Below, piece after piece: positions 44,122-49,731 of a stretch of DNA of 64,000 nt. Location: assembly GCA_902594545.1 (NCBI GenBank), contig CACJMO010000003.1:1-64000 (forward strand), in the 5' to 3' direction. The position numbers and the translations under genes are program-made. The stretch's first letter is position 1, and each line of letters opens with the position of its first letter. The notes beneath the pieces were generated by a model, which searched no databases, was not told the DNA's origin, and saw only the letters and a list, made by a program, of their open reading frames with translations. Origin of the DNA: an uncultured SAR86 cluster bacterium. Its GTDB lineage: Bacteria > Pseudomonadota > Gammaproteobacteria > Magnimaribacterales > Magnimaribacteraceae.

Positions 44122-44592
44122 TTAGAGGTATTCTACCTTTTCAATCTCATACTCAGTAAAACCGCTTGGAGTTTCAAGCTTGAAGGTGTCACCCTCAAAT
44201 TTTCCAATTAAGTTCTTGGCAAGAGGAGAGGCATATGAGATTTTGCCAACATTAGCATCGGCTTCATCTTCACCAACAATTTTATATTGTATGGACTTTT
44301 CTAATTCAGAGTTGAAGACAGTTACTGTTGTTCCGAAAATGACCTTATCTGACGCCTCAATATTTTTTATGTCTATTATTTGAGAATTGGAAAGTTTAGA
44401 TTCAATATCTCTTATTCGAGCTTCAGTAAGGCTCTGTTGCTCTTTAGCAGCGTGATACTCAGCATTTTCTTTCAGATCACCAAACTCTCTTGCAGTTGCT
44501 ATAGCATCAATAATTCGAGGCCTGTCCTCTGACTTAAGTTTTTTTAGTTCTTCTCTAAGAAGGACCTCTCCCTCTTTGGTGATTGGATTCAT
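44122..44592 (-). CDS. greA: Transcription elongation factor GreA
   Basis: GreA (156 residues) rescues backtracked RNA polymerase by stimulating transcript cleavage. The N-terminal coiled coil carries the acidic tip in [20 protein letters not shown] and the C-terminal FKBP-like domain has [18 protein letters not shown]. It overlaps the carB stop by one base, so it lies in the pyrF-carAB transcription unit. Confidence 0.98.
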
Positions 44593-47500
44593 TAATTAAT
44601 TTTAGCATGAAGATCCTGTAATCTTTCAACAGACCAAAGCTCCTTATTTCTTAATACTGCACAAACTGCACGACCGCCTTCAAGAGTAGTTGTGCAGTAG
44701 ATTTTTTCCTCCAAGGCTGTTCTTCTTATTGAAGCCGAGTCAAGTATGGATTGTCGACCTTCTGTTGTATTAACAATCAAGTTAACTTCAGAGTTTTTCA
44801 TAGCATCCACTACATGAGGCCTTCCTTCAGCCACTTTTTTTATAATTTCTACAGGAATATTTTCTTCAGCTATATGTCTTGCAGTGCCCTTTGTTGCTAC
44901 AATTTTAAAACCCAACTCATAAAATTCTCTGGCTAAATCTGCAATAAAAGGTCTGTCAGAATCTCTGACACTAAGGAATACTGAGCCTTTTTGAGGTATG
45001 GATTCTCCAGCACCTAATTGAGCTTTAGCATAGGCCTCTGAAAAAGTAGATCCTACTCCCATGACTTCACCTGTTGATTTCATTTCAGGTCCCAAGATGG
45101 GGTCAACGCCAAGAAATTTATTAAAGGGAAACACAGCTTCTTTTACTGAAAAATATTCTGGAACTATCTCTTTATTGAATTTCTGCGCTTCAAGACTTAT
45201 ACCTGCCATACATAAAGCACCAACTTTTGCTAGAGACCTCCCAATACACTTTGAGACGAAAGGAATAGTTCTTGAGGCTCTAGGATTCACTTCAAGCAAA
45301 TATAGTTCGTTTTTATAATAAGCCAACTGAACATTAATTAGCCCAATAGCACCAATCTCCAAAGCAATTTTCTTTACCATTATGGTAATTTCTTCAATCA
45401 AATCTTCAGATAGGCTATAGGGCGGTAAAGAGCATGCTGAGTCACCTGAATGTATGCCTGCCTGTTCAATATGCTGAAGTATTCCCCCGATGACTACATT
45501 TTTACCATCGCAAACAGCTTCGATGTCCATCTCTGTGGCCTGATTCAAAAAACCATCAAGCAAAACAGGACTCTTAGAGCTCGCCTGTACAGCTTCAACA
45601 AGATAGTTTTCTAAGTCAGATTTTTTATAAACTACCTCCATTGCACGACCTCCAAGAACATAAGAGGGTCTTACAACAAGAGGGAATCCAACCTCTTCTG
45701 AAACTTTCATCGCCTCCTCTACGCTGGAAGCTATACCATTAGGTGGTTGCTTGAGGTTATGTTTATTTACAAACTCTTGAAACCTTCCTCTGTCCTCCGC
45801 TAAATCAATAGAGTCAGGGGAAGTTCCTAAAATAGGGACACCATTCTTTTCAAGCTCTTCAGCTATTTTGAGAGGTGTCTGTCCCCCATATTGAACAATT
45901 ACTCCTTCAGGCTTCTCAATATCGGTTATAGACAAAACATCTTCAACCGTAATAGGCTCGAAATACAGTCTATCGGAAGTATCAAAGTCAGTTGAAACCG
46001 TTTCAGGATTGCAATTGACCATAATAGTTTCGTACCCCTCTTCTCGAAGACCCAGAGAAGCATGAACACAACAATAATCAAATTCAATACCTTGGCCTAT
46101 TCGATTTGGTCCTCCGCCCAAGACCATAATTTTTTTATTTTGGGTAACGTTGGCTTCGCACTCCTCTTCATAGGTTGAATACATATAAGCTGTTGATGAT
46201 TCAAATTCTGCAGCACAAGTATCTACCCTCTTAAAAACTGGCCTGATCCCCAAGTCACTTCTTAAATTTCTGACCTCTTCCTCTGTAGCTTGGATTATTG
46301 AAGCTATTCTGGAGTCAGAAAACCCCTTTCTTTTTAGATCATAAAGTTGTTGTTGGTCTAAATCGGATAAAGTTTTATTTTCAATTATTTTTTCTTGATC
46401 AACTAAATCTTTAATTTGTACCAAAAACCAAGGATCAATCTTGGAAAACTCAAATATCTCATCAACTGTAAGACCCTTTCTAAATCCGTCAGCAACAAAC
46501 CAAAGTCTATCTGGACTGGGTATGCTAATTTTTTGTTTAAGGGTTTCAAATTCATCTTCGTCATTGAATATTGGATTTAGTCCATCTCTTCCCGTCTCTA
46601 GGCCCCTGATAGCTTTTTGAAGAGATTCTTGAAAGGTTCGACCAATGGCCATCACCTCTCCAACTGATTTCATCTGGGTGGATAAAACCGGCTCTGTTTG
46701 AATGAACTTTTCAAAGTTGAATCTAGGAATTTTTGTGACTACATAATCAATAGATGGTTCAAATGATGCAGGAATTACTCCTCCAGTAATATCGTTGCTA
46801 AGCTCATCTAGCGTGTATCCGACAGCTAACTTTGCAGCTACTTTTGCTATTGGGAAACCTGTTGCTTTTGATGCCAAAGCTGAAGACCTAGATACTCTTG
46901 GGTTCATTTCTATTATCAACATCTCGCCATCTTCAGGGTTTATAGTGAACTGAACATTAGATCCACCTGTTTCAACACCTATCTCACGAAGAATATCTAT
47001 AGATGCATTTCGCATTATTTGATATTCCTTATCAGTGAGAGTTTGCGAAGGTGCTACCGTAATAGAATCCCCTGTGTGGACTCCCATGGGATCAAGATTT
47101 TCAATACTGCAGACAATGATACAATTATCATTTTTATCTCGAACGACTTCCATTTCATATTCTTTCCAACCTCCTAGGAATTTATCTATGAAAATCTCTG
47201 ATGTAGGAGAGAGTTCGAGCCCTCTTTTGCAAATTTGATCAAATTCTTCAAGATTATAAGCTATTCCACCACCCGAACCTCCCATGGTGAAGTTTGGTCT
47301 CAAAACACATGGGAAACCTATCTTGTTTAGCAAAACATGAGCCTCTTCTAAATTATGAGCTAGCCCTGATTCAGGAACCTTTAATCCTATTTTTTCCATT
47401 GAAGCTGCAAATAATTCCCTATCTTCAGCCTTATCTATTGCTTCTTTGGTAGCACCTATCATCTCTACATTATGTTTCTTTAAGATCCCTCTGCTGTCTA

Positions 47501-47804
47501 AATCCAGAGCAGCATTTAATGCAGTTTGTCCACCCATAGTAGGAAGCAAGGCATCGGGTTTTTCTTTTTCAATAATCTTTTCAATGGTCTCCCAGTGAAT
47601 AGGTTCGATGTAAGTTGCATCGGACATACTAGGATCTGTCATGATTGTAGCTGGATTGGAATTTATTAAGATTACTCTGAAGCCATCTTCTTTTAATGCC
47701 TTACAAGCTTGTGCTCCAGAATAGTCAAACTCACAGGCTTGACCAATAACAATAGGACCTGCTCCAATGATTAGAACTGAGTTTATATCTTTTCTTCTAG
47801 GCAT
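44592..47804 (-). CDS. carB: Carbamoyl-phosphate synthase large subunit
   Basis: CarB (1070 residues, full length) makes carbamoyl phosphate from bicarbonate, ammonia and 2 ATP for pyrimidines and arginine. Both ATP-grasp halves are present, with [10 protein letters not shown] and [12 protein letters not shown] loops, an oligomerisation region between, and a C-terminal MGS-type allosteric domain ([18 protein letters not shown] onwards), where UMP and ornithine act in E. coli. It overlaps carA by 8 bp. Confidence 0.99.
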
Positions 47805-48912
47805 TTGCTTTCATGTTTTCTTCGAATCTGTCAAATAAGTATTTAAGATCATGGGGTCCGGGGCTGGCTTCCGGATGACCTTGAAAACTAAAAAATGGTT
47901 TAGTTGCATGCTCTATTCCTTGTATGGAGCCGTCAAATAGTGACTTATGAGTAATTCTCAATTCTTCAGGAAGAGTATCTTCGTCAACAGTGAAGCCATG
48001 ATTCTGGGAACTAACAGCTACCTTTTGTGTTTTTAGATCCTGAACAGGATGGTTGGCTCCGTGATGACCGAACTTCATTTTTGATGTCTGTCCGCCTAAT
48101 GACAAAGCCAATAATTGATGACCAAGGCAGATACCAAACAAAGGCATACCTCTTTCTGTCAATTTTGTGATTGTATCAATAGCGTAATCACAAGGTTCAG
48201 GGTCACCAGGCCCATTTGATAAAAAAACTCCATCAGGATTAATAGAGATTAATTCTTCAAATTCTGTTTTGGCTGGAAAGATTCTTAATTCATATCCTCT
48301 ATCGGCTAAGATTCTAAGAATATTTTTTTTAATTCCAAAATCAAGAACAGCTACTTTGAATTTAGTATTTGCTTTTTTTCCTCTCCAAGTACCCTCTGTC
48401 CAATCATAAGGGGTTTTAGTAGTCACTTCTTTGGCTAAATCTAGTCCATTCAGCCCTTGAAATTCTCTAGCCAAACTTACTGCAGAGTCTTCTTCTATAT
48501 CTTCTCCGGCAATTATTGCAGCAGACTGAGAACCCTCATTTCTTATGATTCTTGTTAGTTTTCTAGTATCAATATCCGAGATGCCTAAAATATTATTTCT
48601 TTGTAAATAATCAGATAGATTTTCTTCATTTCTCCAATTACTTTCGGTCTGAGATAGAGATCTTATAACTAATCCTGAGCACCATATCTTCTCTGATTCA
48701 GTATCTTCAAAATTGGTTCCGGTGTTTCCAATATGTGGATAAGTGAGAGTAACAATTTGCCTTGCATAAGATGGATCAGTAAGTATTTCTTGATAGCCAC
48801 TCATTGAAGTATTGAAAACAATTTCTCCATTGACTTGACCTTCAGCTCCAATGCTTTTTCCTTTAAAGATAGTTCCATTTGCGAGAGCTAAAATTGCAGT
48901 AGATTCTTTCAA
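47797..48912 (-). CDS. carA: Carbamoyl-phosphate synthase small (glutaminase) subunit
   Basis: CarA supplies ammonia from glutamine to CarB. The 371-residue protein has the class-I amidotransferase triad: nucleophilic Cys in [13 protein letters not shown], and His/Glu in [10 protein letters not shown]. The start is a TTG at 48912, supported by a strong Shine-Dalgarno AAGGAGG five bases upstream and by the lack of another in-frame start nearby; this TTG overlaps the pyrF TGA (TTGA). Confidence 0.97.
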
Positions 48913-49592
48913 GAAACCTCCTTATAGATGTTTTCTAAAGCATTTGTGGGGTCTTCAGAGCCTGTAATTGGCCTTCCTATTACTAGAAAGTCTGAACCAT
49001 TTGCTATGGCCTCTTTAGGAGTAGAAGTCCTGCTTTGATCATTTAAATCTGCATCTCTTGGTCTAATTCCTGGTGTAACTGTCAAGAAGGATTCGCCGCA
49101 AGTTTGTTTTACTTTTGAAGCATCCGAAGCAGCACACACAACACCATCCAACCCACTCCTTTCGGCCAGCTTTGTTAATCGCATGACCTGCTTATCCAAA
49201 TTGTTGAAGCCAATTTCTGTCAAAATTTCTTCTGAGATACTAGTCAGAATAGTAACCCCTACTAACAGAGGAGGTTTATCAAATCCTTCAAGAGCCTTTT
49301 TCGAAGCATCCAGCATTTTTGAACCACCTGAGGCATGAACATTTATCATCCATACCCCTAAGTTAGCTGCCGACCTGACTGATTCATAGACTGTATTTGG
49401 AATATCATGGAATTTAAGGTCCAAGAAAATTTCAAACCCCTTATCATGCAGCGTCTTTACGATTTTTGGGCCCGAAGAAGTAAATAATTGATTACCTACC
49501 TTTAATCTACAAATATTAGGATCAAGTTTGTCAGCAATACTAACTGCTGAAGTATATTCCATATCTAAAGGTATAATTATCCTATTTGTCAT
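48909..49592 (-). CDS. pyrF: Orotidine 5'-phosphate decarboxylase
   Basis: PyrF makes UMP from OMP. With the ATG at 49592 ([11 protein letters not shown]) the protein has 227 residues. The catalytic Asp-Lys-Asp network is in [13 protein letters not shown] (Asp58, Lys60, Asp63), and the C-terminal phosphate loop is in VTPGIRP and [17 protein letters not shown] start at 49616 is possible but has no support. It heads pyrF-carA-carB-greA and its ATG lies inside the last codons of an upstream leader frame with no strong Shine-Dalgarno sequence, which suggests translational coupling. Confidence 0.97.
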
Positions 49593-49689
49593 GAAGGTGG
49601 ACTGAAGAATCTCCAAATTTAGATGAAAAAAAAGCGAACCAGAAAGAGTTCTGAAGTTCGCTATTTTGTATTTTAAGGCCTGTTGGCAT
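49582..49689 (-). CDS. Putative 35-residue leader peptide of the pyrF-carAB attenuator
   Basis: An uninterrupted frame starts at ATG 49689 and stops at TAG 49582-49584. It crosses the whole terminator hairpin and its U tract, which it translates as SFWFAFFSS, and its last codons overlap the pyrF ATG by 11 bp. The product would be MPTGLKIQNS... ending VHLHDK. It has no Shine-Dalgarno sequence and would begin about 6 bases from the predicted transcript start; an in-frame GTG at 49698 is an alternative. The layout parallels the pyrBI leader of enteric bacteria, where leader translation opens the terminator when UTP is scarce. Function is inferred. Confidence 0.5.
   Translation of the reverse strand: MPTGLKIQNSELQNSFWFAFFSSKFGDSSVHLHDK
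49626..49662 (-). terminator. Attenuator-type terminator upstream of pyrF
   Basis: On the minus strand AGCGAAC (49662-49656) pairs with GTTCGCT (49639-49633). After a two-base bulge, CAGAA (49653-49649) pairs with TTCTG (49644-49640), closing a CTCT loop. Eight Ts follow (49633-49626). It is upstream of pyrF and about 35 bases before its ATG, so it can only act on transcripts heading into pyrF-carAB, because map runs the other way. Confidence 0.85.
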
Positions 49690-49701
49690 TAAAACCACAC
49701 T

Positions 49702-49731
49702 ATAATAAATCATGGATATTGTGTCCATCAA
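49702..49731 (-). promoter_or_regulatory. Predicted promoter of the pyrF-carAB leader
   Basis: TTGATG (49731-49726), an 18-base spacer and TATTAT (49707-49702). Transcription would begin near 49695, giving an initial sequence of GUUUUAAUG. A G followed by a run of U is the context in which UTP-dependent slippage is known at the E. coli carAB promoter. On the opposite strand a perfect TATAAT (49701-49706) overlaps this -10, and may serve map. Confidence 0.6.
49712..49728. promoter_or_regulatory. Near-perfect palindrome in the pyrF promoter spacer (possible operator)
   Basis: ATGGATA-TTG-TGTCCAT: 7-base arms with one mismatch and a 3-base centre. It lies between the -35 and -10 of the predicted pyrF promoter and overlaps the end of the -35. 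The placement suits a repressor site, but I do not recognise the regulator. Confidence 0.4.

Follow-up and report, generated by a model that had tools for sequence, protein, structure and literature searches.

The carAB operon of SAR86 bacteria is probably controlled by a leader switch that is gated by translation of a short leader open reading frame. The DNA analysed here, a stretch of 64,000 nucleotides referred to below as the window, belongs to a SAR86 genome, as the names of its relatives indicate, and the promoter-leader pattern that it carries is present across the SAR86 order (Gammaproteobacteria). A sequence-only reading had described a promoter, a leader ATG, a 35-codon frame and an in-frame hairpin with eight Us upstream of pyrF, all of which are present in the sequence, and had taken them for a pyrBI-like attenuator of pyrF-carA-carB. 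Our comparison of relatives supports the presence of a terminator inside the leader frame, both in the window and in two families of SAR86 loci (f1 and f3), but the list of features was incomplete: it had overlooked a second hairpin, at 49694-49671, that contains the leader AUG. The features of the window are as follows.

49722 to 49727, minus strand: -35 element TGGACA (consensus T[AG]GAC[ATG] over 73 loci)
49699 to 49704, minus strand: -10 element TATAGT (TATAGT in 47, TAAAGT in 20 and TAGAGT in 6 of 73 loci)
49689 to 49692, minus strand: predicted start-site region TTAA, from promoter geometry
49671 to 49694, minus strand: 5'-terminal hairpin TTTTAATGCC-N4-GGCCTTAAAA enclosing the leader AUG, from predicted fold and covariation
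49582 to 49689, minus strand: leader open reading frame of 35 codons, with its TAG stop at 49584-49582
49626 to 49662, minus strand: intrinsic terminator within the leader frame (7 bp, 2-nt bulge, 5 bp, U8)
48909 to 49592, minus strand: pyrF (OMP decarboxylase), the first structural gene, with its ATG at 49592-49590
47797 to 48912, minus strand: carA, with a TTG start, overlapping the pyrF stop by 4 nt (TTGA)
44592 to 47804, minus strand: carB, with an 8-nt overlap with carA

Toward pyrF the minus strand reads TGGACA, 17 nt, TATAGT, GTGG, TTTTAATG and the 35-codon frame, and the two promoter elements are separated by the same 17 nt in all 73 loci of our promoter and leader comparison, which come from three families (f1, f2 and f3). 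From the leader ATG to the terminator stem the distance is about 27 nt. The 5' region folds at -26.1 kcal/mol, compared with -16.5 +/- 3.2 kcal/mol in shuffled sequences (z -3.0). There is no visible Shine-Dalgarno sequence before pyrF and no room for one before the leader frame. The leader stop had been placed on the pyrF ATG; it does overlap the pyrF coding start, but it lies 9-11 nt inside the gene and not on the ATG itself. A known RNA family was rejected as the identity of the leader, as Rfam gave no match at gathering score at this site, its best chance hits falling far below the cut-off. The map gene is divergent and no co-directional gene lies upstream of the leader in the window, which excludes the terminator of an upstream operon as an explanation of the hairpin. 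In the interval 44122-49689, the frames of the leader, pyrF, carA, carB and greA overlap one after another (leader/pyrF 11 nt, pyrF/carA 4 nt, carA/carB 8 nt and carB/greA 1 nt), and translation could be coupled across this whole unit.

A covariance model built from 12 loci of genera g1, g4 and g5 only found a single site in each of 43 genomes, out of 203 of the SAR86 order (E values from 1e-19 to 3e-4 per genome), and the matches include the held-out genera g2, g6 and g7 and the second family f3. Those of the sites that were compared with searches for carA and pyrF all lay directly upstream of one or the other of these genes; judged by the matches of the model, the occurrence of the leader is far beyond chance. 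The leader precedes pyrF-carA in g1 and in part of g4, and it directly precedes carA in g2, g5, g6, g7 and part of g4, all of the same family, as well as in f3; where it directly precedes carA, its other neighbour is the divergent map gene. Elsewhere in the same family, several members have pyrF at a different place, without this leader, and in genome G026 pyrF is placed after an ihfB-gmhA block. In genome G021 the complete pyrF stands behind the car leader, and a remnant of the gene is left at the old site. This decayed copy, on contig 11 (L261:1510-1692), with a lapA-like gene on one side and a cupin gene/uvrC on the other, consists of 71 in-frame codons that join only the first and last parts of the gene. 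From the location of pyrF elsewhere in relatives and the remnant in G021, we infer that the leader is an order-wide SAR86 carAB leader, behind which pyrF was inserted later, in two genera. The remark of the sequence-only reading that pyrF is unusual at the head of a carAB unit is supported. Family f4 (L182-L192) has no leader, its carA ATG lying about 20 nt from a TATAGT-like -10 element, and represents a natural leader-free state of the same operon. In nine SAR86 genomes no similar device was evident by eye before pyrB, pyrC or pyrD, a check that is limited for pyrC, whose gene model matched only weakly and in part.

Several properties of the leader frame suggest that it is translated. Among 29 loci of f1, the stops that lie more than 14 nt before the gene start number 2, 37 and 47 in frames 0, 1 and 2, respectively, and the corresponding numbers among 18 loci of f2 are 0, 39 and 54. 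With the exception of two loci of genus f3-g13, in which it ends at -43, the leader frame ends within -22 to +17 nt of the next start, whether this is the start of pyrF or of carA. The range is -15 to +17 in f1 and -9 to +11 in the f3 genera g9, g12 and g17 (15 of 16 at +8 or +11), while in 19 of the 20 loci of f2 the leader ends at +1 or +4, and leader stop and carA start share nucleotides, in the forms TAATG, TAGTG, TGATG or one similar to ATGA. The distance from leader ATG to gene keeps its phase as its length varies. In 19 of 20 f2 loci it is 83, 86, 95, 98 or 101 nt, which are 2 mod 3 throughout; in f3, with one exception, it is 76, 85, 91 or 94 nt (1 mod 3), and 70 nt in g13. Overlap of leader and gene is found both where carA comes next and where the inserted pyrF does.

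For shuffled f2 tails, the probability of reaching +1 or +4, combined over 12 loci, is about 1e-11, a significance that is overstated because the loci are related. By the looser test of an end within -22 to +17, 27 of 28 representatives of all families pass, compared with 17.2 expected from shuffled tails; f1 alone has a short tail after the terminator, its shuffled tails often pass, and it is of weak significance and contributes little to the total. The strict frame evidence thus comes mainly from f2 and f3. Taken together, the frame statistics, the phase of the distances and the overlap of stop and start strengthen the earlier claim of a translated leader, and the overlap is also consistent with the claim that the leader is coupled to the start of the next gene. 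They also speak against a constitutive terminator that lowers basal expression without regulation and sits in a frame left open by accident. Such a terminator would be in keeping with the terminator-like hairpin found before carA in 22 of 29 other gammaproteobacteria sampled, but the frame properties recur in three families and, with map divergent, there is no co-directional upstream gene and so no other operon to end; we regard this explanation as very improbable.

Substitutions in the leader are spread evenly over first, second and third codon positions, and the terminator hairpin is read in one frame in g1 and in another in g2, yet the frame is kept open, a combination that fits a leader whose translation, and not its product, matters. 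The peptide, which carries no trace of selection, is unconserved, and the open frame is conserved. Attenuation at specific amino-acid codons was rejected, as no run of codons is conserved and the frame of the peptide differs from genus to genus. In genus f3-g13, the leaders of L113 and L160 stop at codon 9, just before the terminator stem, and those of the other members stop inside the stem; this genus is possibly a variant in which the terminating ribosome blocks the 5' arm of the terminator. The sequence-only reading had named a frame preserved across a conserved hairpin in relatives as support for its model, and a broken frame with the hairpin retained as the outcome that would count against it. 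The frame is preserved and the terminator kept in f1 and f3, but f2 lacks the terminator, and a broken frame with a retained hairpin does occur in one genus, f3-g13 (L113 and L160). This weakens a model in which the ribosome reads through the hairpin in every case, but leaves untouched a model in which the hairpin is occupied by a ribosome.

The terminator is a part that f1 and f3 have in common. Family f2 has no terminator but keeps the 5' hairpin, the leader and the exact overlap of leader and carA, which argues that the attenuator is not the conserved core, and that this core consists of the leader with its coupling and the 5' hairpin. The same family bears on pure attenuation of the pyrBI type, in which low UTP would slow RNA polymerase and the leader ribosome would open the terminator, with no sensing role for the 5' hairpin. 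In its favour, the terminator has a U-rich loop and 3' part and is enclosed by a frame that extends to the structural gene. But this explanation leaves unexplained a 5' hairpin that is conserved in three families, as well as the presence of leader and hairpin in f2, which has no terminator, and the leaders of f3-g13 end before the terminator or within it. In pyrBI a U-rich, UTP-sensitive pause tract lies upstream of the terminator. The stretch between ATG and terminator is A-rich, with 5 T among its 28 nt in the window and 5-7 T over the same length in most lineages, unlike the U-rich pyrBI tract. As a full account of the leader, pyrBI-type attenuation seems to us rather unlikely.

The spacing between promoter and leader is constant. 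In all 73 loci the leader ATG lies ten nt after the -10 element, and the sequence TT[TC]TAATG at positions 5-12 after this element is nearly invariant across the three families: one locus has TC at positions 5-6, position 7 is T in 55 loci and C in 18, and positions 8-12 are TAATG in 73 of 73. Positions 7-8 are therefore pyrimidines and positions 9-10 are AA, the last A being the A of the leader ATG, and a pyrimidine at position 7 is combined with a purine at position 9 in every locus. The modal transcription start of bacteria lies 7 bp after the -10 element (PMC5730371), and the usual start in the window is predicted near 49692 (UUAAUG), or at 49690/49689 if a purine is chosen. The start had been placed in GUUUUAAUG; counted from the conserved TATAGT this is position 4, upstream of the expected start, whereas the overlapping TATTAT would put GUUUUAAUG at position 7.

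The run of T at the start site raises the possibility of UTP-sensitive reiterative transcription as the sensor, with terminator and leader secondary. Examples of such control are E. coli carAB P1 (PMC6245113), pyrBI, codBA and upp; the carAB P1 transcript starts GUUUGC and stutters at high UTP (PMC6245113). The TTTT at positions 5-8 of f1 and f2, near the predicted start, is compatible with this, but 18 of the 73 loci, those of f3, have TTCT instead, and in E. coli carAB the effect is lost when the run of T is interrupted (PMC6245113), so reiteration is unlikely as a general mechanism. A start at position 7, moreover, would leave two Us only.

The stretch around the leader ATG pairs with a downstream arm, as TTTTAATGCC/GGCCTTAAAA in g1, TTTTAATGC/GCATTAAAA in g2, TTCTAATGC/GCATTAGAA in f3 and TTTTAATG/CATTAAAA in f2, with a gap between the arms of 4-6 nt in f1 and f3 and of 19 nt in f2. 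The covariation score exceeds those of all 500 shuffles and of all slid controls, double changes occurring at one pair only, that of position 7 (UA 17, CG 10 and UG 2 of 30 distinct sequences). Pairing at positions 7-10 is retained in nearly every locus of all three families; the two outer pairs (positions 5-6) decay in f3, where the pairs from position 7 on are kept, and a boundary at this position is expected if the RNA begins there. With a start at position 7 the AUG is predicted to be mostly paired. As the start is moved to position 10, this pairing falls, and the predicted hairpin weakens stepwise from about -3 to -8 kcal/mol to between 0 and -3.8 kcal/mol. The g1 hairpin, which has a U.C mismatch, retains about -3 kcal/mol even with a start at A10, so the effect of start switching would be modest in this genus. 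On these predictions, the 5' hairpin would depend on an upstream start and would hide a translation start, and this is the start of the leader frame and not that of an enzyme gene.

A near-perfect palindrome at a start site, with compensatory changes, could also be a DNA operator bound by a repressor at +1, the leader frame then serving translational coupling only. A dimer would not tolerate arm gaps of 4-6 nt in f1 and f3 and of 19 nt in f2, however, and it is precisely the outer pairs lying before the expected start of transcription that decay. The palindrome also occurs only once in the genome, and its exact pattern, a narrow one that misses variants and the U.C-mismatched copy of the window itself, was found in 0 of 369 genomes of the class. 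We consider an operator improbable.

The reading that we prefer, a carAB leader switch gated by leader translation, would work as follows. By the geometry of the promoter, RNA polymerase would start 7-10 nt after TATAGT, leaving the leader AUG 0-3 nt from the 5' end, where it would be read without a Shine-Dalgarno sequence. The first 25 nt or so, for which covariation supports a structure, would fold into the AUG-enclosing hairpin and so limit initiation on the leader. In f1 and f3, a ribosome that does initiate would move onto the in-frame terminator hairpin and prevent its formation, and transcription would otherwise stop; in f2, with no terminator, coupling alone would have to suffice. The leader frame overlaps the next gene, and a ribosome terminating there could hand over translation, a handover that the overlapping frames would continue through pyrF, carA and carB. 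Beyond the weak frame signal of f1 and the modest effect of start switching in g1, points against this model are the reported rarity of leaderless translation in enterobacteria (PMC9031893) and the g13 frame, which ends inside or before the terminator.

The signal is the least certain step. By analogy with pyrC and pyrD, a pyrimidine-sensitive choice of start is the likeliest: initiation with a pyrimidine at position 7 or 8 would give the full hairpin (off), and initiation with a purine at A9 or A10 would remove the outer pairs and leave a near-leaderless AUG (on). Pausing of the pyrBI type at low UTP, in the U-rich loop and 3' arm of the terminator, is possible. The complete two-stage nucleotide switch, in which the starting nucleotide decides whether the 5' hairpin hides or frees a leaderless leader start and leader translation then governs termination and coupling, is an idea that we put forward tentatively. 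If true, it would combine start switching of the pyrC type and attenuation by a leader peptide within a leader of about 70 nt and with no protein factor, it would be conserved over most of the SAR86 order, and it would have taken in pyrF by insertion of this gene behind the leader.

SAR86 bacteria are abundant in the surface ocean, largely uncultured and small in genome, and a compact switch built with polymerase and ribosome alone would show how streamlined cells tune their supply of carbamoyl phosphate and pyrimidines. The order offers a natural series, with terminator and leader (f1 and f3), leader only (f2), neither (f4) and the same leader before a new first gene, pyrF, and the parts of the switch are short enough for testing in E. 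coli. We found no description of a SAR86 car leader in the library of open-access papers that was searched, and its closest parallels lie in several known systems.

Like the pyrBI (and pyrE) attenuator of E. coli and Salmonella, the SAR86 leader has a promoter and a leader frame that runs through an intrinsic terminator, before an operon of the pyrimidine pathway; the frame does so except in genus f3-g13, and the terminator lies between promoter and first structural gene in f1 and f3. It differs in that the leader AUG stands at the 5' end inside a hairpin and has no Shine-Dalgarno sequence, in that only the loop and 3' arm of the terminator are U-rich, with no such tract before it, in that the leader stop overlaps the start of the structural gene, and in that one family, f2, lacks the terminator and keeps the rest. 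In pyrC, a pyrimidine stands at position 7 and a purine at position 9 after the -10 element. The SAR86 promoters have the same arrangement, together with a predicted 5' hairpin that hides a translation start; in pyrC and pyrD of E. coli and Salmonella, initiation at an upstream pyrimidine produces a hairpin at the 5' end that obstructs the ribosome (PMC7818426). The hidden start in SAR86 is that of the leader and not of the enzyme gene, and leader translation would in turn control the terminator and coupling.

Among carA leaders, pyrimidine attenuation with a leader peptide has been proposed for Pseudomonas aeruginosa, and a 5' transcript with a mapped 3' end is known from P. syringae (PMC4997734). 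An intrinsic terminator between promoter and carA is common to these and other gammaproteobacterial leaders and SAR86 f1 and f3, but the other leaders sampled have no start-site ATG and no 5' palindrome, and mostly have a GGAGG-like site before carA. Most of these other gammaproteobacteria (L203-L231) carry a CGGGA...TCCCG-T hairpin in the interval from promoter to carA, and in many cases a GGAGG-like site and a TTG start come after it. This is apparently a widespread carA attenuator that has been little described and has no start-site ATG. The carA motif RNA of Polynucleobacter (Betaproteobacteria), a proposed riboswitch candidate, is likewise a structured RNA immediately upstream of carA; it is described as one extended imperfect hairpin, and its description includes no leader frame or terminator (PMC8632094). 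Mycobacterial leaderless uORFs are short frames at the 5' end of the mRNA whose translation controls the next gene and in which cysteine codons are sensed (PMC9031893); the predicted 5' end and the proposed role of the SAR86 leader resemble these, but its peptide is unconserved and has no regulatory codon run. Terminators before carA are common, and leader attenuators of pyrimidine operons are known; what SAR86 would add to them is a leader attenuator whose own leader start is gated by a hairpin at the start site.
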